Shown here: positions 6,765-58,464 of the stretch, piece after piece
Layout of the letters: each line of letters opens with the position of its first letter
How positions within the stretch are numbered: position 1 is the stretch's first letter
NCBI GenBank assembly: GCA_021835845.1
Contig: JAKBJU010000016.1
Location: 1 to 58,606 of the forward strand
Direction: 5' to 3'
Source of the DNA: Pseudomonadota bacterium
Lineage (GTDB): Bacteria > Pseudomonadota > Gammaproteobacteria > Burkholderiales > JABEVD01
DNA length: 58,606 nt
Notes under the pieces: model-generated
The model's database searches: none
What the model saw: the letters and a program-made list of their open reading frames with translations, nothing else
What the model was told of the DNA's origin: nothing
Made by a program: the position numbers and the translations under genes

Positions 6765-8504
6765 TCAGTCAGGCTCCCGTTCGCTTGAACAGCAGTGCGG
6801 TTTCTCGACCAGCACCTGCCCTGTCACCGGATTGGGCCTGAATGCGGTGCATCCCTTCAGTCCCAGTTCGAAGGCGCGATCGTAGAGGGACGCGAAGGAA
6901 TCGAAATCGAAGCATTCCGACACGTTCACGGTTTTCGATATCGCATTGTCGACATGCTGCTGCAAAGCCGCCTGCATGAGCAGCTGTTCCTCGGGAGAAA
7001 CGGCGTCCGCAGTGGCGAATGCCGGAGAAAGCGGCGCATTCTCGCCCATTTTTTCCCTGAAAAGCCTGAAGGCGTAATCCGCAACCCGGACGGCGTCGAG
7101 CCGGCCGTCCGCCTGCCTGATGCTGCGCTCGAATTCCAGCGCGTAAATCGGCTCGAGTCCGCTGGATATATTGTCCGCCAGCAGGCTGATGGTCCCAGTC
7201 GGTGCGATCGCGGTGAGGTGGCTGTTCCTGATGCCGTATCTGGCGATGTCTTGCCGGATTTCTTCGGGGAGCGACCCGACGAATTCGCTTTTCAGGTATG
7301 CCGGCTTGAAGAGGGGGAAGGGGCCTTTTTCCCTCGCCAGCTCGATCGAGGCGAGATATGCGGCCTCCTTGATTGCCTTCATGATGTCGTGTGCGGTTTT
7401 TCTGGCTGCCATGCTGCCGTAATGGATGCCCAGCATGACAAGCGCATCCGCGAGTCCGGTGATGCCGAGTCCCAGCCTCCTGGAGGATCTTGCGACCCTG
7501 CGCTGCTCCGGCAGGGGGAATCGGGAAAGGTCGTACACGTTGTCCAGCATCCTCACTGCGATTCCTGCCGTGCGGGCGATGCCGGCTAAATCGACTGACG
7601 CCTTTTCGGTGAAGGGGGCGGCGATGAAACGGGTCAGGTTGATCGATCCGAGATCGCATGCGCCATAGGGGGGGAGCGGGATCTCGCCGCAGGGATTGGT
7701 CGCGCTGATGGTTTCGCAATAGGCGAGATTGTCCGCGCGTCTCACGCGGTCGATGAAAATGATGCCGGGTTCCGCGCAGGAGTAGGCGGCGCGCATGATG
7801 CGCTCCCAAAGTGCGGCTGCCTGCACGCGCCTGAAAACCTTTCCGCCGAAGACGAGCGGCCATTTACTGCCGGCTCTGACTGCCTGCACGAAGTCATCCG
7901 TTGCGAGCACGGAGAGGTTGAAATGGCGCAGCGAACTGCCGTTTTGCTTGGCCTCGATGAAATCCAGGATATCGGGATGATCGCAGCGCAATGTCGCCAT
8001 CATCGCACCGCGCCGCGCGCCGGTGGAGAGTATCGTGCCGCACATGCTGTCCCAGATTTTCATGAAGGAGACCGGGCCCGATGCGATCATGCCCACGCTT
8101 TTTGCAGGCATTCCGCAAGGCCTCAGGGTGGAAAAATCGTATCCCACGCCGCCTCCCTGCTGCATCGTGATCGCCCCTTGCTTGAGCGAATCAAAAATGC
8201 CGGCAAGCGAGTCTTCGATGGTGCCCATCACGAAGCAATTGAACAGCGTGACGCGGTGATGCGTGCCTGCGCCGGCCAGTATCCTTCCCCCGGGAAGAAA
8301 AGCGAAATTCTCCAGCACGGAATAGAATTCGGATTCCCTGTCGCCGTCTTTTTCACGGCTGGCCAGGGTGCGGGCGATGCGATGCCAGGTGTCCTCGATG
8401 GAAAGGTCGCGGATCGCGTCCCCCTCGCGCCAGCGGTACTTGGCGTTCCAGATCCGCTCCGAGATGGTTCCGGTCATGGGTTTCGATGTGACATAATTAG
8501 CCAT
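6765..8504 (-). CDS. nrdJ: Class II (adenosylcobalamin-dependent) ribonucleotide reductase
   Basis: Reduces ribonucleotides to deoxyribonucleotides with a B12-derived thiyl radical, independently of oxygen. About 579 residues. Recognisable features are NCFVMGTIEDSL with the first active-site cysteine, QQGGGVGYDFSTLR, the NPCGEIPLPPYGACDLGSINL region holding the central active-site residues, GLGITGLADAL, and APTGTISLLADNISSGLEP. The C-terminus ends in a CC pair (HCCSS), suited to re-reduction of the active site by thioredoxin-type donors. No class I small subunit or NrdG activase adjoins it. Possible starts are GTG at 8516, ATG at 8504 and ATG at 8477; I use 8504, which has a G-rich run about 12 nt upstream. 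The start region overlaps the divergent relA start. No B12 riboswitch is visible because the upstream sequence is relA coding DNA. Confidence 0.9.
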   Translation of the reverse strand: MANYVTSKPMTGTISERIWNAKYRWREGDAIRDLSIEDTWHRIARTLASREKDGDRESEFYSVLENFAFLPGGRILAGAGTHHRVTLFNCFVMGTIEDSLAGIFDSLKQGAITMQQGGGVGYDFSTLRPCGMPAKSVGMIASGPVSFMKIWDSMCGTILSTGARRGAMMATLRCDHPDILDFIEAKQNGSSLRHFNLSVLATDDFVQAVRAGSKWPLVFGGKVFRRVQAAALWERIMRAAYSCAEPGIIFIDRVRRADNLAYCETISATNPCGEIPLPPYGACDLGSINLTRFIAAPFTEKASVDLAGIARTAGIAVRMLDNVYDLSRFPLPEQRRVARSSRRLGLGITGLADALVMLGIHYGSMAARKTAHDIMKAIKEAAYLASIELAREKGPFPLFKPAYLKSEFVGSLPEEIRQDIARYGIRNSHLTAIAPTGTISLLADNISSGLEPIYALEFERSIRQADGRLDAVRVADYAFRLFREKMGENAPLSPAFATADAVSPEEQLLMQAALQQHVDNAISKTVNVSECFDFDSFASLYDRAFELGLKGCTAFRPNPVTGQVLVEKPHCCSSEREPD

Positions 8505-10611
8505 GGTTACCGTCACGCCCCCCGGCGAAAGCGCCGATTTCTCAAGCTGGATCGAGTCTCTTTCGCCGCACTACACGCCGCAGGAAATCGAATCCATTCG
8601 CCTGGCCACGGAGCATGCCGCAAGGCAGAACATGCGCCTCCCCGGCGGAGAGTCGATGCTCGAACATGTGATCCAGTCTGCTTCAATCCTAGCAGGGATG
8701 CACCTGGATTGCGAGGCGGTCGAGGCCTGCCTGCTGCTTTTCTGCAGCGATATCGGGGAGGCCTTCGGGGAAGGCGTGGAAAGCCTGGTCGAGGGCGTGA
8801 AACGTTTTTCCTCGTTCGATCTCGACGAAACCGAAAAAGGGGAGCTCGAAGGCCTGCGCAAGATGCTGCTCGCGATCGTCCAGGACATCAGGGTGGTCCT
8901 GATCAAGCTTGCCGATCAGCTGCAGAGCCTGCGCCATCTTGCAGGAAGCAGCGACGAGGAGGCAAGGTTGAAGGTTGCAGTCAAGACGCGCGACATTTAT
9001 GCGCCGCTCGCCAACCGGCTCGGCATCTGGCAGATCAAGTGGGAGCTGGAGGATCTGTCTTTCCGCATCCTGGAACCCGAAACCTACAAAAAGATCGCGC
9101 GACTGCTCGACGAGAAGCGCGTCGACCGGGAAAGATTCATCGCGGCTGCCATAGCCGAACTGAAAGGCGAGCTGGAGGCGGCCGGAATCCGCGGGGAAAT
9201 CTCCGGACGCCCCAAGCACATCTACAGCATCTACAAGAAAATGCAGCGAAAGAACCTGGGGTTCGAGGGCATTTACGATGTCAGGGCGATCCGGGTGCTG
9301 GTGGATGACGTGAAGGACTGCTATGGCGTCCTCGGCATCGCGCATGACCTGTGGGCCCCGATTCCAGGGGAGTTCGACGACTACATCGCCAAACCCAAGG
9401 AAAACGGCTACAGTTCCCTGCATACCGGGGTGATCGGACCTGAAGGCAAGGCGCTCGAAGTACAGATCAGGACGCGCGAGATGCATCATGCGTCCGAGAT
9501 GGGGGTCGCCGCCCACTGGCGCTACAAGGAAGGGGGGAGGCGGGATTTCCGCTTCGAGGAGAAGCTCCTCTGGCTCAGGAAGCTCATGGGCTGGCGCGAC
9601 GAATTGGGCGAATCGGAAAATCTCGCCAGGGAAATCAGGGAAGGGCTCTTCCAGGAGGCCGTCTACGTCATGACGCCGCAGGGAAAGGTCATCGACCTGC
9701 CCAGGGATGCGACGCCACTGGATTTTGCCTATCATGTGCATACCGATCTCGGCCATCGCTGCCGCGGGGCGAAAGTGGACGGGGCGATCGTCCCGCTCAA
9801 CACGCCCCTGAAGACCGGGCAGCGCGTCGAAATCATCGCTGCAAAGCAGGGCGGACCGAGCCTCGACTGGCTCAATTCCGAGCAGGGCTTCGCGAAAAGC
9901 TCGCGAGCCCGCGCCAAGATCAGGCAATGGTTCAACAGCCGCAATTTCGAGACGAGCGTGGCGCATGGGCGCCTGCAGCTCGAAAGGGAACTGAAGCGGG
10001 CCGGAAAGGGCGGCATTTCCCTGGAGAAGGTCGCAGATCATTTCGGGTTCGCGAAGCTGGACGATTTTCTGGTCGAGGTCGACAGGGGAAACATCACGCG
10101 CCGCCAGATCCAGTCCTTCTTGCGGGAAGAGACTGCCGAACCGCAAAAGCTGCCGGTGGCGAAGATCAGGCCTACCCAACGCTCTGGCGAAGTGCTGATT
10201 GTCGGCGTGGACAAGCTCCTGACCCTGCTTGCAAAATGCTGCAAGCCGGTTCCTCCTGACGAGATAATCGGCTTCGTCACCAGAGGGCGCGGGGTGATGA
10301 TACACAGGAAGAGCTGCACCAATGTCGCTCATCTCGATCCGGACAGGCTGCTGGAAGCCCAGTGGGGCCCGATGGGCGGGAAGTTTCCCGCTGACATCGT
10401 CATCGAGGCATCCGACAGGCAGGGGCTGCTGCGGGACATATCCGACATCCTGGCCAGAGAAAGAATCAACGTTACCGCGACCAGGACGCTGAGCCGCGTG
10501 GACAGGGCGAGCATGCGCTTCACGATAGCGGTTTCCGACCTTGCCGAATTGCGCAAGGTTCTGGGAATGATCATGGAAGTACCAGGGGTCGTGCAGGCAT
10601 CGAGACGATAG
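8503..10611 (+). CDS. relA: (p)ppGpp synthetase RelA, hydrolase-inactive
   Basis: Ribosome-associated alarmone synthetase of the stringent response, 702 residues. Order: degenerate HD hydrolase domain (1-180), synthetase domain (about 235-345, with GRPKHIYSIYKKM, YDVRAIRVLV and ENGYSSLHTGV), TGS domain (about 390-450, VMTPQGKVIDLP), helical/zinc-finger-like region (CCKPVPPDEIIGF near 578) and C-terminal ACT domain (about 625-700). The HDxxED hydrolase motif is replaced by FCSDIGEA, so the protein should only make (p)ppGpp, as expected of RelA rather than SpoT. The ATG at 8503 lies in a CCATGG that also holds the opposite-strand ATG of nrdJ. No Shine-Dalgarno sequence precedes it, so a short or leaderless mRNA is possible. 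Confidence 0.93.
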   Translation: MVTVTPPGESADFSSWIESLSPHYTPQEIESIRLATEHAARQNMRLPGGESMLEHVIQSASILAGMHLDCEAVEACLLLFCSDIGEAFGEGVESLVEGVKRFSSFDLDETEKGELEGLRKMLLAIVQDIRVVLIKLADQLQSLRHLAGSSDEEARLKVAVKTRDIYAPLANRLGIWQIKWELEDLSFRILEPETYKKIARLLDEKRVDRERFIAAAIAELKGELEAAGIRGEISGRPKHIYSIYKKMQRKNLGFEGIYDVRAIRVLVDDVKDCYGVLGIAHDLWAPIPGEFDDYIAKPKENGYSSLHTGVIGPEGKALEVQIRTREMHHASEMGVAAHWRYKEGGRRDFRFEEKLLWLRKLMGWRDELGESENLAREIREGLFQEAVYVMTPQGKVIDLPRDATPLDFAYHVHTDLGHRCRGAKVDGAIVPLNTPLKTGQRVEIIAAKQGGPSLDWLNSEQGFAKSSRARAKIRQWFNSRNFETSVAHGRLQLERELKRAGKGGISLEKVADHFGFAKLDDFLVEVDRGNITRRQIQSFLREETAEPQKLPVAKIRPTQRSGEVLIVGVDKLLTLLAKCCKPVPPDEIIGFVTRGRGVMIHRKSCTNVAHLDPDRLLEAQWGPMGGKFPADIVIEASDRQGLLRDISDILARERINVTATRTLSRVDRASMRFTIAVSDLAELRKVLGMIMEVPGVVQASRR

Positions 10612-10644
10612 GATAACATTGCAGATGTCGCATTGAGGTGCGTG

Positions 10645-12825
10645 ATGGATCTGAATACCGTATATATCAGGACAGCGAAGGGCGAGGCAGAACTCGGGAA
10701 CGAGCAGCTCTCCCTCGAGTTGCACGACATACTTTCCCGTTTGGATGGCAAGACCAGCGTCAGGCAAATGATGCTGGACGCTGCTTTCTGGTCGGGGCAG
10801 ACTTTCGAGCAGGCCCTGAACGAGCTTCTGGAGGGCGGATATGTCCAGATGCTTTCCGGGGCGGCCATCGCAGCGGAGAAGGCTGCTCCTCTTGATGCTG
10901 CCCCGAATCCTCCAGTCGAAGCGCAGCGCAGCGCTGGCAAGAGCAAATTCGCCGAATCGAAGCGAACCCTGATCGCCAGCGTGCTTTTTCTCGACATGGT
11001 CGAGTACACGAAGCATCCGGTTGCCGACCAGCTCAGGATGAAGGAGGATTTCAACCGGCTGGTCTATCAACTCGTGCAGAAAATCCCCGAGGACGACCGC
11101 ATCATCATCGACACCGGCGACGGCGCAGCGCTGGGCTTCCTCGCCGACCCGGAAGAGGTGCTGTTCATCGCAATCAAGCTGCGCGACACGCTGGAAGCGA
11201 ACGGCCACAAGGATTACCCTTATCTTTATGTCAGGATGGGGATCAACCTCGGCCCGATCAAGCTCGTCACGGACATGAACGGCAGGGAAAACCTGATCGG
11301 GGATGGCGTCAACGATGCCAGCCGAATCATGGGATTCGCAAAGGGCGACCAGATCCTGATTTCGCGCTCTTTTCACGACGTGGTGAGCCGCCTTTCGAGC
11401 GAGCATTCTGGCCTTTTCAAATACCAGGGCGTTCACAGGGACAAGCACAAGAGAGAGCACGAAATCTACGAGGTGGGAGGAGGGACCGGGGCGGCAGGGG
11501 AGGCGGCTGCGGAAGAAAAGGTGGAGGAAGCCATCCGGGCCGAAAGGCTGGCGAAGATGAGGGCGAAGCTTGAGGCTGAAGCGAAAGCGGAAGCCGAAGC
11601 GAAAGCCGCCAGGGCTGCCAGGGAAGCGCTTGAAGCAGAAGCGCGCAAGCATGCGCAGGCGAAGGCGGTGAAGCCGAGAAGCGCGCCCCGGAAAAAAGGC
11701 AGGGGCATCGGCAGGCGCATTGCGATTGCGCTTGCCCTGATCATCGCTGCAACTGCAGGAATCCTGCCCTTCGTTCCTTTGGAATTTCTCGCAAGGCATG
11801 CCGAAAGGACGATCTCGGACAGAACCGGTGAAACGGTGGCGGTCGGATCCGCCTCTCTTGCGCTGCTTCCCGTGCCGGAAATGGTGCTGAGGGGGGTTTC
11901 GGTCGGACAGAATCTCAAGGTTGCGAGGCTGACGGAAGCGATTTTCGGATCCGGGCTTGTCCGGATCGACGGCGCGACAATCGGTCAGAATGCCCTTGCT
12001 GGAATTTCAGGCTGGAAGGCGCCGGCTCGGAAAGTTGAATTGGAAAATGTCGCCCTTTCCCTGAACGGAAAGCTGCTTCCCGCCTTCGGCGGCGAAGTCG
12101 ATTTCGCCGAAGACGGGACATTCAGGCATGCCAGCATCAGGAGCGAAGGCATGAAGATCGAAATTGCGCCGGGGGAGTCCGGCGCCAACATCGTACTCGA
12201 TGCAAAAGACTGGAAGCTGCCCTTGGGGCCAGAATGCCCGTGGTCCGAAATCCATGCCAGGGGAATTGCGAGCGGAAATGAATTGAGGATCGCTTCGATC
12301 GAAGCCAGCGGCTACGGCGGAGACTGGTCCGGGTCAGGCAAGATTGCCTGGGGTGATGGCTGGCACGGAAGCGGAAGCCTCGAGGGGAAGCGTCTCGATA
12401 TCGGGCAGCTTCTGCCCTGTTTCTCGAAGAATGCGAGGCTGAAGGGGACGCTCGAATTCGATGCTGCAGTGGCTTCAAGTGCGGCGAATTTCAACGGGCT
12501 CTTCGATTCCCCCGGGGTCGAAGCCGCCTTCAGGCTCACAAGCGGCGTAATCGGCAATGTCGATATCGCCCAGGCGATACAAACGCCTTCTCCCGGCGGA
12601 TCGAGCGGCGGGGAGACCCGGTTCGACGAGCTTTCCGGTAAGCTCTCCGCATCCGGCGGGGTTTACCGCTACAGCGAACTGAAAATGACGTCCGGGATCA
12701 TGAAGGCGTCCGGCGAGTTTTCAACTGCGCAAGGGAATCTCTCCGGCAGCATCGCGGTGTTCCTCAAGCAGATGCACTTACCTTTGCGGCTTGACGGCAG
12801 CCTTGCCGAGCCCGTCCTTCGCTGA
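10645..12825 (+). CDS. Class III nucleotidyl cyclase fused to a periplasmic AsmA-like domain
   Basis: 726-residue fusion. Residues 1-70 are a small helical module of winged-helix type. Residues about 108-275 are a class III cyclase domain with first metal aspartate in LFLDMVEY, second in DTGDGAA, and the Asn/Arg pair in VNDASRIM. An Ala/Glu-rich coiled coil follows (about 290-345), then basic residues and one transmembrane helix (about 355-378). The remainder, about 380-726, resembles the AsmA N-terminal and C-terminal regions (RTGETVAVGSASLALLP start, repeated beta strands, ending DGSLAEPVLR). The layout predicts a cytoplasmic cyclase tethered to a periplasmic lipid-groove-type domain. The base-selecting positions are Ile and Asn rather than the Lys/Asp of adenylate cyclases. 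The start at 10645 has GAGG 6 nt upstream. It follows relA by 33 bp and may share its transcript. Confidence 0.85.
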   Translation: MDLNTVYIRTAKGEAELGNEQLSLELHDILSRLDGKTSVRQMMLDAAFWSGQTFEQALNELLEGGYVQMLSGAAIAAEKAAPLDAAPNPPVEAQRSAGKSKFAESKRTLIASVLFLDMVEYTKHPVADQLRMKEDFNRLVYQLVQKIPEDDRIIIDTGDGAALGFLADPEEVLFIAIKLRDTLEANGHKDYPYLYVRMGINLGPIKLVTDMNGRENLIGDGVNDASRIMGFAKGDQILISRSFHDVVSRLSSEHSGLFKYQGVHRDKHKREHEIYEVGGGTGAAGEAAAEEKVEEAIRAERLAKMRAKLEAEAKAEAEAKAARAAREALEAEARKHAQAKAVKPRSAPRKKGRGIGRRIAIALALIIAATAGILPFVPLEFLARHAERTISDRTGETVAVGSASLALLPVPEMVLRGVSVGQNLKVARLTEAIFGSGLVRIDGATIGQNALAGISGWKAPARKVELENVALSLNGKLLPAFGGEVDFAEDGTFRHASIRSEGMKIEIAPGESGANIVLDAKDWKLPLGPECPWSEIHARGIASGNELRIASIEASGYGGDWSGSGKIAWGDGWHGSGSLEGKRLDIGQLLPCFSKNARLKGTLEFDAAVASSAANFNGLFDSPGVEAAFRLTSGVIGNVDIAQAIQTPSPGGSSGGETRFDELSGKLSASGGVYRYSELKMTSGIMKASGEFSTAQGNLSGSIAVFLKQMHLPLRLDGSLAEPVLR

Positions 12826-28557: not shown

Positions 28558-31500
28558 TCATGACCCCAGCTTCCTGTACGAGATCATCAATTCTTTCAGC
28601 TTCCGGCGAAAAGGATTGCGCCTCTCAATAAAAGCCTTGATCAGCCTGAGTCTGCCTCGTTTCCTTCCCGGCATCCTGCGGTTATGGGCGGGATTCTCAT
28701 GGATGGAAATCAGGCGCAGCAGCGCCTCAAACTGCTTTTTCCGGACAAGCTTGTCCTGGTTCATGAAGGCGAGTGAGAGCGCCAGACCGGCAACCTTCGT
28801 GGCGGGGAAGAGCGTTCTCGTCAGGGCGCCGATCAACCCGCTTTGCTTGATCCATACATCCAGTTTTTCCTTTAGGGGCCCCGCATCCTGGTTCAGGAAG
28901 ATGAAGGCCAGCGCCATGCCGACGGTTTTTGCCGCAACGGCAAGGCGATACGCAATAGCATCTCCGCCTTGTTCGATCAAGTCGAGGGCCTGGTTGGAAA
29001 CGTAATGCAGCATCTGCACGTTGTCGCCATAAACGTATCTGACGATTTTCGAATAGGAGGCGGTATCCACGATGAATTCGGTGCCGAAAAGCACCTTGTC
29101 TCCGCGCTGGATGGCCCGCTGAATCACGCACGGGAAGCAGTACTGGATGCCGTCCTTGACCGTCCAGATGGTGGCATGCTCCTGGGCCTTGATCCTGAAG
29201 GGGAGGTCGGCGAGAAAACCCATCCCGGTCAGCGAGACGTCCATGAGATCGCCCACCACGGTGGAATTGATGCGCGGAAAATAGATCGTGGCATCGCCGC
29301 TCGCCGCAAGGCGCTGAAGCTTGCGCGCCTTCTTGTTGTCCAGCAACTGGATTAGGGCGGCGAGCGCCAAATACAGGAAATAAACGCACCAGCTTGCGGC
29401 GGCAAGCGTTTTTTCCCATAGGAAGGGCGTGAGCGTCAATGTTTTGGCCAGTTTCCAGAGCCTGATGAGCGTTGCCTTGAGCAGCGGATAGGCGCTTCCG
29501 ACGAAACCCTGGACGCCCGTTTTCAGGAAATACCAGAGCATCTTGGCAGTCCCCCGCGCAGCCGACTTTTTGTCCCAGTCGTCCTGCCAGCGCTGGCTGT
29601 CCCCGAAAACATAGCTGACTATGTCGGCATAGCTGACCATGTTCGGGATGAATTCGCTGCCGCAGAAATACCTGCCGTTGCGCTTGAAAACCCGCTGCAA
29701 TTTGGCTTCGAAATGGTAAGTTTCACCGCGGCTGTCCTGCACCTCGAGCATCACGTGGTCCTGTTCGCGAGGCAGAAAGGATACATCCAGCTCGAAGCCG
29801 ATGCCCGAGATGGAAATGTCGCGCACCATGCCTTCGTGGGAACTGCCCATGCGCGGAAAATGCGCGCTTATCCTGCCGCTGGCGTTGATGCGGTGAAATT
29901 TCCGCACCTGCTTGCGCTCCCAGAATGCGCCCAGGGAAACCACCGACAGATACAGGTTGTAAATGCACCATACGGCAGTCACCGCGATCACGTCGCGCAG
30001 GATTGGAGTGGAAATGAATTTGACGATGGCGAGGATGACCGCAGTGACGTTGATGGCAATGACCAGGAAAAACGGGGCCGCAAGCGGGCTGAGATAGTTC
30101 TTGTCGTTGGTGAAGCCCTTGGGCGTCACCTTGAACGAGGGCTTCCAGGGATTGACCATGACCGAGAGGACGGCCGGGATCAGAAACAGTGACTGGACGC
30201 TTTCATAGATTTCGGAGAAGAAGGGCTGTCGCGATCCGGCATAAAAATAATCCATCACCATATGGGTGCTCACCAGATAGGGCAGGGTGAAAACCAGAAT
30301 CTGCAGCCACGAAGCGTGATAGATGTTCAGCCCAAGGATCAGGTACATCGACGGCGCGATGAAATAGATGAAGCGCGACAGGCCGAAAAACCAGAAGAAG
30401 CTGGAATTGAAATAGGCGATTTTCTGCGGGATGGACAATCCCTTGGTTTTCAGCGGATTGTTGAGCAGGAGCAGCTGCACCATCCCCTGTGCCCAGCGGG
30501 AGCGCTGAATCACGTAGTCGTCATAGGATTCCGGCGACAGCCCGCAAACCATGGGCCGGTTGATGTAGATGCTGTTGTAGCCGCGGCTGTGCAGCTGGAA
30601 GGCGGTTTCCGCATCTTCGGTAATGGTGGTGCCGCAGATTCCCCCCACTTCCATGAGATATTTGCGGCGCAGCAATGCGGCCGAGCCGCAGAAATAGCTG
30701 GCATTCCAGAAATTCAGAGCGGGATGAATTTTGCGGTAGAACATATCGTTCTCGCCGGAAGGCGTGGCCACGCCTTCCAGATTCTTTTCAACGGGCGTCG
30801 GATTGATGAAGAAGTGCGGAGTCTGAACCAGGTACAGCTTCGGATCGGTCATGAAATGTCCGACGGTTCTTTGCAGAAAGTCGCTGGTCGGCACATGGTC
30901 GCAATCCAGAACCAGCACCAGATCGCCATGGGTATATTGCAGCGCATGGTTGATGTTTCCCGCCTTGGCCTGCTGATTGGTTTCACGGGTGATGTAGTCG
31001 ATGCCGAGATCCGCTGCCATCTGCCTGAGGCGATAATGGCGCTCCCAGGCCGACATGCCGTTTTCCGGATGAGAGCGCTTGGCATGCGTGCTGCCGTCGT
31101 CGATGATGTAGACCTTGAGGCGACTCTTCGGATAATCCAGATTGGCGGCAGCGGTTGCCGTGATGCGCACGATCTCGTCCGACTCGTTGTAGGTGGGGAT
31201 CAGTATGTCCACGCTGGGCAACTTGTCGGGTTCGGGCGGCAGCGGCACCGGTCGGCTTACCAGCGGCCAGACATTGACGAACATGCCCATGAAATAAATG
31301 GCCAGCCCGTAAACTTCGGCCACATAGACCAGGGTCATGCCGACAAAATCGAGCGGCCCGGTATACAGCAGGGTATCGAAGGTGCGCCACATCATGTAGC
31401 GCAATGCCAGATAAACTCCCAGCACCAGAAAGATCAGGCGATAGGGCTGCTGCTGGGTTTTCTTGGTCTTGTACATCACGATCATGATGGCAAGACAGCC

Positions 31501-31647
31501 CCAGCCGAGATCGATCTGCTGGAGGGGCGGGAAGTAGGTGGCCGTGAAGTGAATGGAGTAGGACAGGATGCCGATCAGCAGGAGGCCCGCTGCGGCGATC
31601 TGCGTGGCCCTGTCTTTTCTTTTGATGACCGGCATCCGGTATTTCAT
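28558..31647 (-). CDS. bcsA: Cellulose synthase catalytic subunit BcsA with two PilZ domains
   Basis: Family 2 glycosyltransferase that polymerises UDP-glucose and threads the glucan through the membrane. At 1029 residues it is much longer than most BcsA (about 750-870). The catalytic motifs are intact: DDGSTHAKR, DCDHVP, TITEDAETAF near 339, and QRSRW near 376. A first PilZ domain starts near residue 579 (RKFHR, then DISISG). After further hydrophobic helices a second PilZ starts near 777 (RKLQR, then DVSLTG). Both have the RxxxR and D/NxSxxG residues that bind c-di-GMP. The C-terminal ~140 residues are basic with two short hydrophobic segments. The gene is downstream of a cyclase gene, from which a MITE-like element separates it. 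Confidence 0.93.
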   Translation of the reverse strand: MKYRMPVIKRKDRATQIAAAGLLLIGILSYSIHFTATYFPPLQQIDLGWGCLAIMIVMYKTKKTQQQPYRLIFLVLGVYLALRYMMWRTFDTLLYTGPLDFVGMTLVYVAEVYGLAIYFMGMFVNVWPLVSRPVPLPPEPDKLPSVDILIPTYNESDEIVRITATAAANLDYPKSRLKVYIIDDGSTHAKRSHPENGMSAWERHYRLRQMAADLGIDYITRETNQQAKAGNINHALQYTHGDLVLVLDCDHVPTSDFLQRTVGHFMTDPKLYLVQTPHFFINPTPVEKNLEGVATPSGENDMFYRKIHPALNFWNASYFCGSAALLRRKYLMEVGGICGTTITEDAETAFQLHSRGYNSIYINRPMVCGLSPESYDDYVIQRSRWAQGMVQLLLLNNPLKTKGLSIPQKIAYFNSSFFWFFGLSRFIYFIAPSMYLILGLNIYHASWLQILVFTLPYLVSTHMVMDYFYAGSRQPFFSEIYESVQSLFLIPAVLSVMVNPWKPSFKVTPKGFTNDKNYLSPLAAPFFLVIAINVTAVILAIVKFISTPILRDVIAVTAVWCIYNLYLSVVSLGAFWERKQVRKFHRINASGRISAHFPRMGSSHEGMVRDISISGIGFELDVSFLPREQDHVMLEVQDSRGETYHFEAKLQRVFKRNGRYFCGSEFIPNMVSYADIVSYVFGDSQRWQDDWDKKSAARGTAKMLWYFLKTGVQGFVGSAYPLLKATLIRLWKLAKTLTLTPFLWEKTLAAASWCVYFLYLALAALIQLLDNKKARKLQRLAASGDATIYFPRINSTVVGDLMDVSLTGMGFLADLPFRIKAQEHATIWTVKDGIQYCFPCVIQRAIQRGDKVLFGTEFIVDTASYSKIVRYVYGDNVQMLHYVSNQALDLIEQGGDAIAYRLAVAAKTVGMALAFIFLNQDAGPLKEKLDVWIKQSGLIGALTRTLFPATKVAGLALSLAFMNQDKLVRKKQFEALLRLISIHENPAHNRRMPGRKRGRLRLIKAFIERRNPFRRKLKELMISYRKLGS

Positions 31648-31932: not shown

Positions 31933-32796
31933 CTAACGCTGAGCCTCCCCGGCTGGACTGACGGAGTCGCTGACCGAACGCTTGCTTTCGGTCGATTGGG
32001 AGGAACCCATGAATTTCATGCCGAGCGTCAGCAGCAACACGACCGCGACCACGGCAACTGCCCCCCATACCGCTTTCATGCCGGACGAGCGAACCGGGAC
32101 GTCCGCTTCCTGCCTGGGCAAGACGTCCTGGCCCTGCTTGTCGAGTTCGATTTCCTTCGGATTCCAGAACGCCTTGTAGGCGTTGAACAGGTCTTTCTTG
32201 CCCTTGAGGCTGACCTGCTTGATGAAGCGGCAGTAGATCTCGGACTTGTCCGACAATGCGTTATAGGTCTCTTCGGAGATGAGTATCATGCCGGGATCGG
32301 CGGAAGACTCGAAGCGGGAAGCGGTATTGACGACGTCGCCGAAAATGTCCTTGGCCTCGACCATGCATTTTCCGGTATGCATCCCGATGCGCATCAGCAC
32401 CGGCGTCTTGAATTTCTTGGACAGGTTGAGCTCGTCCATGCCGCGTTGAATGCGTACCGCGGCGCGAAGAGCATCCAGCGCATGCTCGAAGTAGGAAAGG
32501 GTGCCATCGCCGATGGATTTGACGAAAGTCCCCTTGTTCTCCTGAATCGCAGGCAGGAGGATGTCGTTCTGATACTTGATCAGCATGCGGCTGACCAGGT
32601 CACCTTCGTTCTCGGCAATGGCCGTGGAGCCCTTGAGATCGGTGAAGACGACAGTGATGGTTCTGGTGAATTTGTCGTTGATGGATGACTCCAGTCTCGC
32701 CCGCTCTTCGAGTATCTTTTCAAGGTCATCCTGGGGATGGGCTTCCGCTTCCTGATCCTTTTCCGGGGGTTGGGTGTTGTCAGAGGTTTCGTCCAT
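31933..32796 (-). CDS. Class III adenylate/guanylate cyclase, tail-anchored, upstream of bcsA
   Basis: 287 residues from the ATG at 32796, which has GGAG at good spacing; the longer frame to 33195 runs over the bcsZ promoter and coding region. An acidic N-terminus (about 1-45) leads into a class III cyclase domain (about 48-225) with VVFTDLKGST (first metal aspartate), FVKSIGDGTL (Lys plus second metal aspartate) and KDIFGDVVNTASRF (Asp plus Asn/Arg). The Lys/Asp pair predicts ATP as substrate, so cAMP as product. One transmembrane helix near 245-265 anchors the C-terminus. Same strand as bcsA, 285 bp upstream, and divergent from bcsZ. The stop codon is at the edge of the MITE-like element. 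Confidence 0.87.
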   Translation of the reverse strand: MDETSDNTQPPEKDQEAEAHPQDDLEKILEERARLESSINDKFTRTITVVFTDLKGSTAIAENEGDLVSRMLIKYQNDILLPAIQENKGTFVKSIGDGTLSYFEHALDALRAAVRIQRGMDELNLSKKFKTPVLMRIGMHTGKCMVEAKDIFGDVVNTASRFESSADPGMILISEETYNALSDKSEIYCRFIKQVSLKGKKDLFNAYKAFWNPKEIELDKQGQDVLPRQEADVPVRSSGMKAVWGAVAVVAVVLLLTLGMKFMGSSQSTESKRSVSDSVSPAGEAQR

Positions 32797-32956
32797 TGCA
32801 ACTCCGTATCTTGAATTGGGCCAAGCATACAGCCTTGTTTGCGGCTGGTTTGGTAAAAGTCTTAATGATAGTTGAATAACAGTAGGCTGGCAAAGGGAAA
32901 ATTGCCGATATTGCCATCGGAGCCTGGCAGATTTTCGCTCGCGAGCGCCTCCGAAA

Positions 32957-32985
32957 TTGGGCAGGAAATCCGGGTGCAGTATAAT
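32957..32985 (+). promoter_or_regulatory. Promoter for bcsZ
   Basis: TTGGGC (32957-32962) and a perfect TATAAT (32980-32985) with 17-bp spacing. The predicted start near 32992 excludes in-frame codons before that point as the translation start of bcsZ. Confidence 0.7.
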
Positions 32986-33016
32986 CATCCTGAAAATCCT
33001 GGAAGGAATGAATGCC

Positions 33017-34102
33017 ATGACGCACACAATCGGAATCTTTTCAGAGGGATGCTGGTCAGATTTGGAAACCGCTTCCCTGTGCAGGCGCTCGAAAATGGCA
33101 ATCTTCGGGCTCCTGGGCGCGATGCTGCTCGCCGTCAGCATGGCGGCCTCCGCGTCGCAGGCCGACTGGGGAAAATTCAAGCAGCGTTTTGTCACGCAAG
33201 AGGGCCGCGTGATCGACGCCGCTCAGGACAATATCAGCCATTCTGAAGGGCAGGGCTATGGAATGCTGCTTGCCGTGTACTACGACGACAAGGCCTCGTT
33301 CGACCAAATCTGGCAATGGACGAAAAAGAATATGCAGGTACGCGACGATCGCCTGCTTGCCTGGCGCTGGGATCCCCAGGGCGGCGTGACGGACAAGAAC
33401 AACGCGAGCGACGGCGATCTGCTCGTGGCTTGGTCCCTGCTGCGCGCCTTCAACAAGTGGCATGACCCGCAATATCGGCTCGCCAGCCAGGGCATTGCGC
33501 AGGACATCCGCACCAAAATGCTGAAACAGGCTCCCCAGGGCCTCGTCATGCTGCCGGGCTCCCGGGGTTACGATCATCCGGAAGGCATCACGATCAACCT
33601 TTCCTACTGGGTTTTCCCGGCCCTGGATGAGATCGGACAGGTCGACCCTTCCCCGCAATGGGCGGAACTCGCCAAAACCGGCATGACCATCCTTGGCTAT
33701 GCCCGCTTCGGCAGATGGGGATTGCCCCCCGACTGGCTCGTGCTCACCAAGATCGTGGCGCCATCGCCGCACTTTCCCCCCCGCTTCAGCTACAATGCCG
33801 TGCGCATCCCGCTTTATTTGCTGTGGAGCCGTCGCGAGTCGCCTGCATTGCTCAAACCCTACCAGGATTTCTGGAGCTATTTTCAGGGCGCGAAATTCCT
33901 GCCTTCGTGGACCAATCTCGAGGAAAACAGCGTGGATACTTACGACGCCTCGGTTGGTATACACAAGCTGGCGCAATGGGTGATCGGCTATCCGCGCCTG
34001 CCCGATGCCCGAAAATATCCGCTCGACGATAATCAGGGATACTATTCTTCGGTGCTCCTGCTGCTGTCGGACATGGCCATCAAGGAGCGCGGCCCGAAGT
34101 GA
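33017..34102 (+). CDS. bcsZ: Periplasmic endo-1,4-beta-glucanase BcsZ (GH8)
   Basis: Cellulase of glycoside hydrolase family 8 that trims or proof-reads nascent cellulose in the periplasm. About 361 residues. The catalytic acid is in the SEGQGYGM stretch and the NNASDGDLLVAWSLLRA segment holds the family aspartate; LLAWRWDP and ITINLSYWVFPAL are also typical. A hydrophobic signal segment (MAIFGLLGAMLLAVSMAASASQA) begins 26 residues after the chosen start, so either the N-region is long or translation starts at the ATG at 33095. GGAAGG lies 10 nt before 33017; 33008 is too close to it. Divergent from the cyclase-bcsABC run, with its own promoter. Confidence 0.9.
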   Translation: MTHTIGIFSEGCWSDLETASLCRRSKMAIFGLLGAMLLAVSMAASASQADWGKFKQRFVTQEGRVIDAAQDNISHSEGQGYGMLLAVYYDDKASFDQIWQWTKKNMQVRDDRLLAWRWDPQGGVTDKNNASDGDLLVAWSLLRAFNKWHDPQYRLASQGIAQDIRTKMLKQAPQGLVMLPGSRGYDHPEGITINLSYWVFPALDEIGQVDPSPQWAELAKTGMTILGYARFGRWGLPPDWLVLTKIVAPSPHFPPRFSYNAVRIPLYLLWSRRESPALLKPYQDFWSYFQGAKFLPSWTNLEENSVDTYDASVGIHKLAQWVIGYPRLPDARKYPLDDNQGYYSSVLLLLSDMAIKERGPK

Positions 34103-55912: not shown

Positions 55913-56977
55913 TCACAAGAAAAAGATTGCGGCGACCGCAATCAGAATGAACATGGCGAATCCCGCCCAAAGCAGGCTTGCGCCGGATTCCGGCCGGGTA
56001 TCCGGCAATCCCTGAAATTCGGTCAGTATGGCAAGCTGCCTGGTCGCCTCGAAGGAATCGAATGCCTTCGAGATGCCGAGCGTAGGGGATGAGTCGACGG
56101 ATTCGCTGTCCGTTTCGGCAAAGTGCGCAAGAATGGGCGTCATTTCCCCCTCTCCCTGGTCTTTTGCGCAGGCTTTCAGATCGTCGGCGATTTCGCTTGC
56201 GCTCTGGTAGCGTTGCTCGGGATTCTTGGCGATCGCCTTCGCGACAATGTAATCGAGGATTCGGGGCGATTTCGGGTTCACGCTGCTGGGCGCAGGCGGA
56301 TTGTGATTCATGATCTGGAACATGATGGCATGCACGTTCTCGCCGGTGAAGGGCGGGGTCCCCGTCAGCATTTCGTAAAGCACCACGCCGAGGGAGAAGA
56401 TGTCGGCCCGGTAATCGATGCTTTTTCCGGTTACCTGCTCGGGAGACATGTATTGGGGCGAGCCCATGACCATTCCCGTCATCGTCTTGACTGCAGAAGA
56501 GGGAACCATGGCTATGCCGAAATCCGTGATCTTCGTCAGGCCGCTCTTCAGTATCATGATGTTGGAAGGCTTGATGTCGCGGTGCACGATGTGGTGCTCG
56601 TGGGCATAGGCGAGGCCCAGCGCGACCTGTCCGGCGATGTCGACGATCCTGTCCATGCCCAGCGGTTTTCCGGAATCCAGGATCTGACGCAGTTCCTGTC
56701 CTTCCAGATATTCCATGGCCATGTAGGCAAGGTTCTCGCTCCTGCCGACATCGAACAGGCTGACGATGTTGGGATGGCTGATCTTTCCGGTCGCTTTCGC
56801 TTCCTGGTAGAAGCGCGCTTCGTATTCGCCGAGCTCGGCTTCCGACAGCGACAGGTTCAGCGTCTTGATTGCGACAGTCCTGTCGAGGACGGGGTCTCTG
56901 GCCTTGTAGACGACGCCCATTGCGCCCCTTCCAAGCTCCGAGATGACTTCGTACCGGCCTATCCTGTCGGGCAGCAT
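55913..56977 (-). CDS. Membrane-anchored Ser/Thr protein kinase (PknB-like)
   Basis: 354 residues. An intact Hanks-type kinase domain spans about 8-270: ELGRGAMGVVYKA (glycine loop), the lysine in VAIKTLN, VHRDIKPSNIM (catalytic loop), TDFGIAM, and MGSPQYMSPEQVTG. An acidic linker follows, and a C-terminal transmembrane helix (about 333-354, LLWAGFAMFILIAVAAIFFL) tail-anchors the protein with the kinase in the cytoplasm. No PASTA domains. It starts 4 bp after the TssQ-like gene in one operon with a cyclase. Confidence 0.92.
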   Translation of the reverse strand: MLPDRIGRYEVISELGRGAMGVVYKARDPVLDRTVAIKTLNLSLSEAELGEYEARFYQEAKATGKISHPNIVSLFDVGRSENLAYMAMEYLEGQELRQILDSGKPLGMDRIVDIAGQVALGLAYAHEHHIVHRDIKPSNIMILKSGLTKITDFGIAMVPSSAVKTMTGMVMGSPQYMSPEQVTGKSIDYRADIFSLGVVLYEMLTGTPPFTGENVHAIMFQIMNHNPPAPSSVNPKSPRILDYIVAKAIAKNPEQRYQSASEIADDLKACAKDQGEGEMTPILAHFAETDSESVDSSPTLGISKAFDSFEATRQLAILTEFQGLPDTRPESGASLLWAGFAMFILIAVAAIFFL

Positions 56978-57384: not shown

Positions 57385-58464
57385 CTAAAAATGATGCTCG
57401 ATTATAACGCGCTCACCGGGGTGTGCTTCAACCGTTTTGGAGTGCTTGGGCAGGGTTGTGTTCCTGATCTCGATTTCGTGCTTGCCGGCCTTGATCCTGA
57501 TGGCCTTGAGAGGCGGGCTGATGCCGCGCATCTTGCCGTCCACATAGATTTCGCCCCATGGCATGACCTTGAACACCAGGGTCGCGTTGCCTGCCGGGGC
57601 GGGTTTCTTCGGGGGGGGCGCCTCGGCTCTGTTTGCTCCCGTCCTGGAATGCGGTGCCGCTTGTGCGGGGGCGGGTTTTGCAGCTACGGCCTCTGCCGGT
57701 TTTTGCGCAATGACTGGCGGGGCGACGTCCCGTGCGACCTGCGCGGGCTGCTGCGGGATGGCCTGTCTGGCCGGCTCATAGGCCGTCTTCACCAGGATTG
57801 CTGCGAGGATTAGAAAGATGGCAGTTGCCGGGAAGACTTTTTTCAGCAGCAGACTGCGGTTGCTCCACCAGGGTATATTTTTCGGCTTCGTTTCGACCTG
57901 ATGGGCGTGCTTGAAGGAAGCCTTGAAGGCATCTTCATGCCCGATTTCGTTCTTGACGGCGTAAAGCTCATGTTCACGCACATGCTTGTCGGTACGGGAT
58001 CCCTGATATTCGAAAAGCTTTGCATATTCGTCGGTGACGCATGATATGACTTCGAAGAAGGAGCGCGAAACCAGGATCTGGTTGGGCTCGGCGAAGTTCA
58101 TGATGCGCTGCGCCACGTTGATGCCGTCGCCGATGATGTTGGGCTGCTTGTTGATGTCCTGTACCAGCCTGACCGGCCCGAGGTTGATGCCTATTCTCAG
58201 GAAAAACGGAATTTCCTGATCGGAATGAACGGCTTCCCGGAGCTTCATGGCGGTGAGCAGAGCATCCTCGGGATCTCCCTGGAAGCTGATTGCAGCGCCG
58301 TCCCCAGTGTCGAGAATGATTCTGTCCGTGACCGGGACGTTCTTGATCGCCAGAGAAATCAGGGCGTTGAACTGATTTTTCAGCTTGATTTGTTCGGCAA
58401 CGGATTTCTTCGAATATTCGACGATATCGAGGAATACCACGCTGCATATGGTTGTCTTGTTCAC
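57385..58464 (-). CDS. Class III nucleotidyl cyclase with C-terminal PEGA-like domain
   Basis: 359 residues. The cyclase domain (about 5-175) has VVFLDIVEYS (first metal Asp), LDTGDGAA (second metal Asp) and IIGDGINVAQRIM (Asn/Arg). A basic linker, one transmembrane helix (about 210-230), a Pro/Ala-rich spacer, and a PEGA-like beta domain (about 292-359: GEIYVDGKMRGISPPLKAIRIKAGKHEIEI) follow. The cyclase domain is a clear paralogue of the one at 10645, sharing the DTGDGAA signature and lacking the Lys/Asp pair that selects adenine. It heads an operon with the TssQ-like lipoprotein and the Ser/Thr kinase. Confidence 0.87.
   Translation of the reverse strand: MNKTTICSVVFLDIVEYSKKSVAEQIKLKNQFNALISLAIKNVPVTDRIILDTGDGAAISFQGDPEDALLTAMKLREAVHSDQEIPFFLRIGINLGPVRLVQDINKQPNIIGDGINVAQRIMNFAEPNQILVSRSFFEVISCVTDEYAKLFEYQGSRTDKHVREHELYAVKNEIGHEDAFKASFKHAHQVETKPKNIPWWSNRSLLLKKVFPATAIFLILAAILVKTAYEPARQAIPQQPAQVARDVAPPVIAQKPAEAVAAKPAPAQAAPHSRTGANRAEAPPPKKPAPAGNATLVFKVMPWGEIYVDGKMRGISPPLKAIRIKAGKHEIEIRNTTLPKHSKTVEAHPGERVIIEHHF

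Follow-up and report, generated by a model that had tools for sequence, protein, structure and literature searches.

The window, a stretch of 58,606 nucleotides from a bacterium of the order Burkholderiales, encodes a 726-aa protein (10645-12825, forward strand) in which a winged-helix-like (wH) domain, a class III nucleotide cyclase, a charged, presumably helical stretch, a single transmembrane helix and a short AsmA-like region are joined in one reading frame without an internal stop. Most likely, the protein is a cyclase of the receptor type, or a tethered one, in which the short AsmA-like domain serves to sense or hold some constituent of the envelope. The narrower prediction, a class III nucleotide cyclase of the receptor type with its anchor in the inner membrane, has, in our estimate, about equal chances of being right and wrong. 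The earlier note on this DNA had proposed that a cyclase, a coiled coil, a membrane helix and an AsmA-like region share a single frame, and the intact open reading frame, the Pfam matches and the hydropathy profile bear out the fusion. The winged-helix-like N-terminal domain, the relA-like gene located upstream and the occurrence of the same fusion in other families were absent from that first reading.

The fusion gene starts with an ATG codon preceded by a GAGG motif, and an in-frame TTG at position 10633 represents a possible alternative start. A search for tandem repeats in the gene returned no rows, and promoter and terminator scans at this locus gave no usable result. From the N-terminus, the predicted protein comprises the winged-helix-like domain (residues 1-75, 10645-10869), the class III cyclase homology domain (residues 106-278, 10960-11478), an Ala/Glu/Lys/Arg-rich charged region that from its composition is presumably helical (residues 285-352, 11497-11700), the transmembrane helix (about residues 355-378, 11707-11778) and a short AsmA-like, predicted periplasmic region of about 345 residues (11779-12822), all encoded on the forward strand. 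The sole hydrophobic segment peaks at residues 359-377 in the hydropathy profile, and a helix is also present here, with low confidence, in the AF2 model. According to the positive-inside rule, the positively charged flank of a membrane helix faces the cytoplasm; the stretch on the N-terminal side of the segment is rich in Arg and Lys, and the N-terminal half of the protein is thus predicted to be cytoplasmic.

The possibility that two genes were joined by a sequencing error, which the earlier note had named as a reason to abandon the fusion, is ruled out by related genomes. The gene is present in all eight other genomes of the genus, and in seven of them it is one full frame, the product of which is 54-88% identical to the window protein over the full length; the eighth copy (G002) is cut by contig ends. 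Judging by record names, the genus assemblies carrying the gene stem from at least three projects. Purifying selection acts on every segment of the fusion gene for which dN/dS was computable. In four pairs the whole gene gave ratios of 0.25-0.30, the cyclase segment 0.09-0.21 and the transmembrane and AsmA-like segment 0.31-0.35, with the charged region saturated in one of the four pairs. The cyclase was the segment with the lowest value in three pairs, and in the remaining pair, with G004, the winged-helix-like and charged segments were lower.

Among 100 relatives, a full-length match was confined to the window genus, and in samples of the class (369 genomes) and phylum (398 genomes) the window's own gene was the only fused match at E ≤ 1e-20. 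The matches listed for a sample of the order (399 genomes) included longer frames holding both the cyclase and the AsmA parts. The arrangement of winged helix, charged linker, cyclase, linker, transmembrane helix and AsmA-like region was found in Gallionellaceae and in one genome (G137) of a further family (f48), which rules out that the fusion is unique to the window gene or genus. The Gallionellaceae were recognised through their genome G511, whose match coordinates agree with those of the genome of Sideroxydans locus L087. In f48 the fusion occurs in one of four genomes, and in Gallionellaceae (158 genomes) at least 34 genomes have a frame of no less than 788 aa that matches the cyclase. 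All 24 Gallionellaceae fusion loci that were read have cyclase and AsmA parts in one frame, and a winged-helix domain was recognised in 20 of them; 20 of these 24 loci were chosen for their long frames, so the counts represent confirmation and not a rate. Of the 72 loci with a stand-alone cyclase described below, 37 had their genomes inspected as well, and by hand count 22 of 37 had both parts in one frame, including records of Gallionella, Sideroxydans and Candidatus Ferrigenium bremense. The architecture, whose phylogenetic spread the earlier note had proposed to check, was located in the window genus, Gallionellaceae and f48. That note also knew of no described system with such logic. A literature search for AsmA together with a cyclase, in which subscription journals were thinly covered, found no paper on such a protein, and to this extent the statement stands; the architecture itself recurs beyond the window genus.

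In 13 of the 24 Gallionellaceae loci (L176, L177, L185, L209, L211, L212, L216, L217, L218, L219, L221, L223 and L224) a second AsmA-family gene is located upstream of the fusion gene on the same strand, at a distance of 24-67 bp in 12 loci and of 910 bp in the remaining locus. Among the 11 loci without such a gene, four have fewer than 800 bases of upstream sequence and are uninformative in this count. An aminotransferase gene, recognised by eye from the sequence, is the other recurring neighbour in this family. There is no second AsmA gene beside the window fusion gene, and no neighbour was seen to be conserved across the order.

The cyclase domain is matched by PF00211 (Guanylate_cyc) at residues 171-252 with 21.4 bits, just under the cut-off of 21.9, which is passed by all seven other genus members scanned singly. 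The best Foldseek match of the cyclase model was 1ybu, the structure of Rv1900c (E 1e-11, TM 0.83 by target length), and other class III cyclase structures were matched as well; profile and modelled fold together place the predicted domain in class III. Residues Asp117 (codon 10993-10995) and Asp159 (11119-11121), which we take to be metal-binding, and Asn223 and Arg227, presumably the transition-state residues (codons 223-227, 11311-11325, including the clade-marking Asp224), occur without exception in the 34 fused cyclases. The Lys and Asp/Thr residues that select the substrate in canonical adenylyl cyclases are absent from the same 34 proteins: position 155 is occupied by Ile in nine and Leu in 25, and position 216 by Asn in all, the window protein having Ile155 and Asn216. 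In the alignment Ma1120 carries Lys and Asp at the matching positions, and the PDB titles for this protein mention a KDA-to-EGY change, which fits 155 and 216 as specificity sites. The mycobacterial Rv0386 likewise deviates at the substrate-selecting positions. The cyclase homology fold is shared with Rv1900c and Ma1120, and the metal Asp pair and the Arg align with those of Ma1120; unlike both proteins, the fusion has Ile (or Leu) and Asn in place of Lys and Asp, and a transmembrane helix and an AsmA-like domain after the cyclase.

Judging from these residues, the cyclase domain looks able to catalyse, with the nucleotide left unsettled by the replaced Lys/Asp pair, and because of this replacement its activity could be changed or low. 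Together with the Pfam score below the cut-off, the replaced pair might also indicate a catalytically degenerate domain serving dimerisation alone. We consider this very improbable, given that the four core residues are kept in every fused cyclase and that closely related species share 95-96% identity in the cyclase, in addition to its low dN/dS in most pairs. Regarding a pyrimidine cyclase of the Pycsar type (PycC), PADLOC PycC profiles gave no family at E ≤ 0.1 for the window protein; the stand-alone paralogue gave only E 0.026.

This paralogue (57385-58464, reverse strand) consists of a cyclase, a transmembrane helix and a short C-terminal domain which looks PEGA-like by eye, Pfam reporting the cyclase alone. 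It and the stand-alone proteins of 72 loci have a cyclase about 50% identical to that of the fusion, located as in the fusion in the N-terminal part of a longer protein. The stand-alone relatives that were read show, by eye, a hydrophobic segment and a further domain after the cyclase, and neither an AsmA-like region nor a winged-helix domain was found in the 72 loci. In a tree of 92 cyclase domains, for which the 72 stand-alone rows of L087-L158 had first been reduced to 36, the 34 fused cyclases formed one clade (support 99/93) separate from 58 stand-alone ones, including copies from the same genomes. Residue 224 is Asp in 32 of the 34 fused cyclases (Ser in two) and Val in 78 of 80 stand-alone ones. 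Capture of the genus's own stand-alone cyclase is not supported, as the stand-alone cyclases of the window genus, of f48 and of two Gallionellaceae genomes fall outside the fused clade. The tree of the AsmA halves comprised 72 rows, from which the fragmentary G002 copy and any match weaker than 1e-25 had been excluded. A clade of the 33 fused rows alone was rejected (p-AU 3e-54) in a test that pushes cyclase-less family members out of the clade, and a clade of the fused halves plus four cyclase-less Gallionellaceae rows, a set chosen post hoc, was not rejected (p-AU 0.218). The trees would be compatible both with one fusion event followed by losses and with transfer of the cyclase module.

A Ser/Thr kinase gene (55913-56977) lies beside the stand-alone cyclase gene of the window on the same strand. 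Another class III cyclase gene of the window (31933-33195; PF00211, 76.3 bits) adjoins a PilZ-containing cellulose synthase-like gene (28558-31647). Locus L184 (3799-5928) contains another member of the stand-alone cyclase's family, just downstream of a frame that looks, by eye, like a membrane sensor ending in a HAMP-like part; the two are separated by a stop and possibly represent a split gene.

The N-terminal domain was modelled by AF2 (residues 1-70) as a strand, four helices and a strand, with block pLDDT values of 76-89. Matches to HTH_47, HTH_24, TrmB and MarR_2 were obtained for six, four, four and three of 15 relatives, respectively (E ≤ 0.5; best 1.4e-6), and none of these families was matched by the N-terminal 78 aa of the window protein itself. 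The data support a winged-helix fold, which is shared with ToxR/CadC-like membrane regulators, but the basic recognition face of a DNA-binding winged helix is missing in the window genus. The pI of the domain is 4.1-4.9 in all eight genus members, whereas it is mostly basic elsewhere, with medians of 9.0 in 21 other fusions and 9.4 in 30 cyclase-less proteins. The putative recognition helix has a net charge of -3 in the window protein and is negative in 13 of 15 relatives. DNA binding by this domain is unlikely in the window genus, where the domain, being acidic, probably serves contact with a protein instead.

The AsmA-like nature of the C-terminal region is supported by profile evidence at the family level. 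In the window protein PF05170 (AsmA) matches residues 544-675 with 24.6 bits, under the cut-off of 29.8; four of the seven other genus members, scanned singly, pass this cut-off, and 11 of 16 family members match at E ≤ 1e-3. A 16-row family profile compared by hhalign aligned with 91% probability both to E. coli AsmA (163 columns) and to YicH (219 columns), against 0.07% for the TamA control, so the identity check by HMM suggested in the earlier note came out in favour of an AsmA-like region. The 8-row genus profile was weak (AsmA 0.9%, YicH 26.7%, TamB 0.4%; TamA control 0.2%), and a profile search of the PDB with the AsmA alignment gave no matches at E ≤ 1. The AF2 model of the C-terminal part, built from the 8-row alignment, contains the transmembrane helix, a second helix and many strands (pLDDT 68.6). 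Foldseek returned no match to this model at E ≤ 1e-3, the rows of top probability being the Atg2 N-terminal domain (0.90 and 0.87), and in the VIA fold search all Z values were below 8, with weak rows mixed with outer-membrane barrels. The weak fold-search rows include Atg2, Vps13, LptC and TamAB along with many barrels.

As is predicted for the window protein, AsmA, YicH, YhdP, TamB, PA2708 and GspN have one membrane helix on the N-terminal side followed by a beta-rich region. The window protein differs from them in its additional large enzyme-like N-terminal half, and from the bridge-forming members of the group in its far shorter periplasmic part. According to PMC10900882, the whole YdbH, TamB and YhdP proteins are 879-1,266 aa long, and the length of P. 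aeruginosa PA2708 (361 aa) is judged insufficient for spanning the periplasm; deletion of PA2708 left growth unaffected. GspN is described in PMC12802150 as an AsmA-like protein with a single inner-membrane helix that supports lipoprotein translocation.

These lengths bear on the suggestion, made in the earlier note, that a cyclase fold gates lipid transport. It is disfavoured, since a region of about 345 residues falls in the size class of PA2708 and seems too short to span the periplasm as a bridge-type phospholipid transporter would, and since the genome separately encodes a full-length YhdP (1,277 aa frame) and AsmA (585 aa frame); elsewhere in the genome a further frame, of 1,037 aa, also matches AsmA. 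For the same reasons it is improbable that the cyclase domain binds a nucleotide as a regulatory switch and gates a step in lipid or lipoprotein transport by the AsmA-like domain. The transport role of the short GspN and the non-canonical substrate-selecting residues are in keeping with such a switch, and the second AsmA gene in Gallionellaceae could form a partner pair with the fusion; however, the catalytic residues are invariant and the window gene has no adjacent partner of this kind.

Proteins composed of a winged-helix domain, a charged linker, a transmembrane helix and an AsmA-like region, all homologous to the parts of the window protein, also exist without a cyclase, and no name was found for them. 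Thirty were read in the order, including four in Gallionellaceae and three in f48. They differ from the window protein by the absence of the cyclase, by a mostly basic winged-helix domain and by their charged linkers, with a median of about 550-570 residues and a maximum of 1,223. In 58 of 59 such proteins, fused or not, the sequence ahead of the AsmA-like region contains exactly one hydrophobic segment. The cyclase-less version occurs in many families and the fused one in three, which indicates that the scaffold works without a cyclase. The long-linker proteins of L048-L073 (e.g. L055:5219-9790 and L052:178-5205) would be very long if helical and cytoplasmic, and a role for them as a nucleoid-to-envelope tether is conceivable.

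The existence of this scaffold means that it could be purely structural also in the window protein, the cyclase being a passenger that is merely localised to the membrane and not controlled from the periplasm. Such a passenger would tolerate the observed variation in its distance from the winged-helix domain (18-39 residues in the genus and 217-925 in the other fusions measured), and the lack of a neighbour conserved across the order agrees with it too. On the other hand, the fused cyclases belong to a single clade marked by a residue of its own, and this suggests that they have long been adapting to the partner and are not random passengers. We regard the structural tether as unlikely, although it deserves some weight.

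In the receptor-type reading, which we prefer, the predicted cytoplasmic half comprises the winged-helix-like domain and the cyclase, in which none of the four catalytic core residues is lost, and is connected through the charged region and one membrane helix to the short AsmA-like domain. Class III cyclases are dimers, and the protein would accordingly form a homodimer. The AsmA-like groove may bind a lipid, an acylated protein or an envelope partner; binding would change how the membrane helix and the charged helix pack and, through them, the cyclase dimer interface. The cyclic nucleotide produced could then act on some of the 11 cNMP-binding proteins encoded by the genome. Coupling of the envelope state to a cyclic nucleotide, the other proposal of the earlier note, remains a plausible hypothesis.

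A relA-like (p)ppGpp synthetase gene (8503-10611, forward strand) is located 33 bp upstream of the fusion gene, and in all nine genomes of the genus such a gene precedes the fusion gene on the same strand with a gap of 33-39 bp. This adjacency hints at coupling to the stringent response; the other flanking genes are largely common to the genus genomes too, so the link to relA may be plain synteny. An extended form of the receptor reading would define a class of envelope receptors, in which a dedicated clade of non-canonical cyclases, controlled by the AsmA-like groove, converts the lipid or lipoprotein state into a cyclic nucleotide, possibly not cAMP, with a relA-linked connection to the stringent response in the window genus. 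We put this forward tentatively, as considerably less likely to be correct than to fail.

AsmA-like proteins are known as handlers of lipids or lipoproteins, and we know of none that is part of a signalling enzyme. From its sequence, the fusion appears to represent a kind of envelope sensor that has not been described before, present in a few betaproteobacterial families. If a conserved cyclase-AsmA receptor of this kind exists, its cyclic nucleotide output would offer a direct assay of the ligands of AsmA grooves, which are otherwise hard to measure, and the inputs to cyclic nucleotide signalling of Gallionellaceae and related bacteria would then include the envelope.
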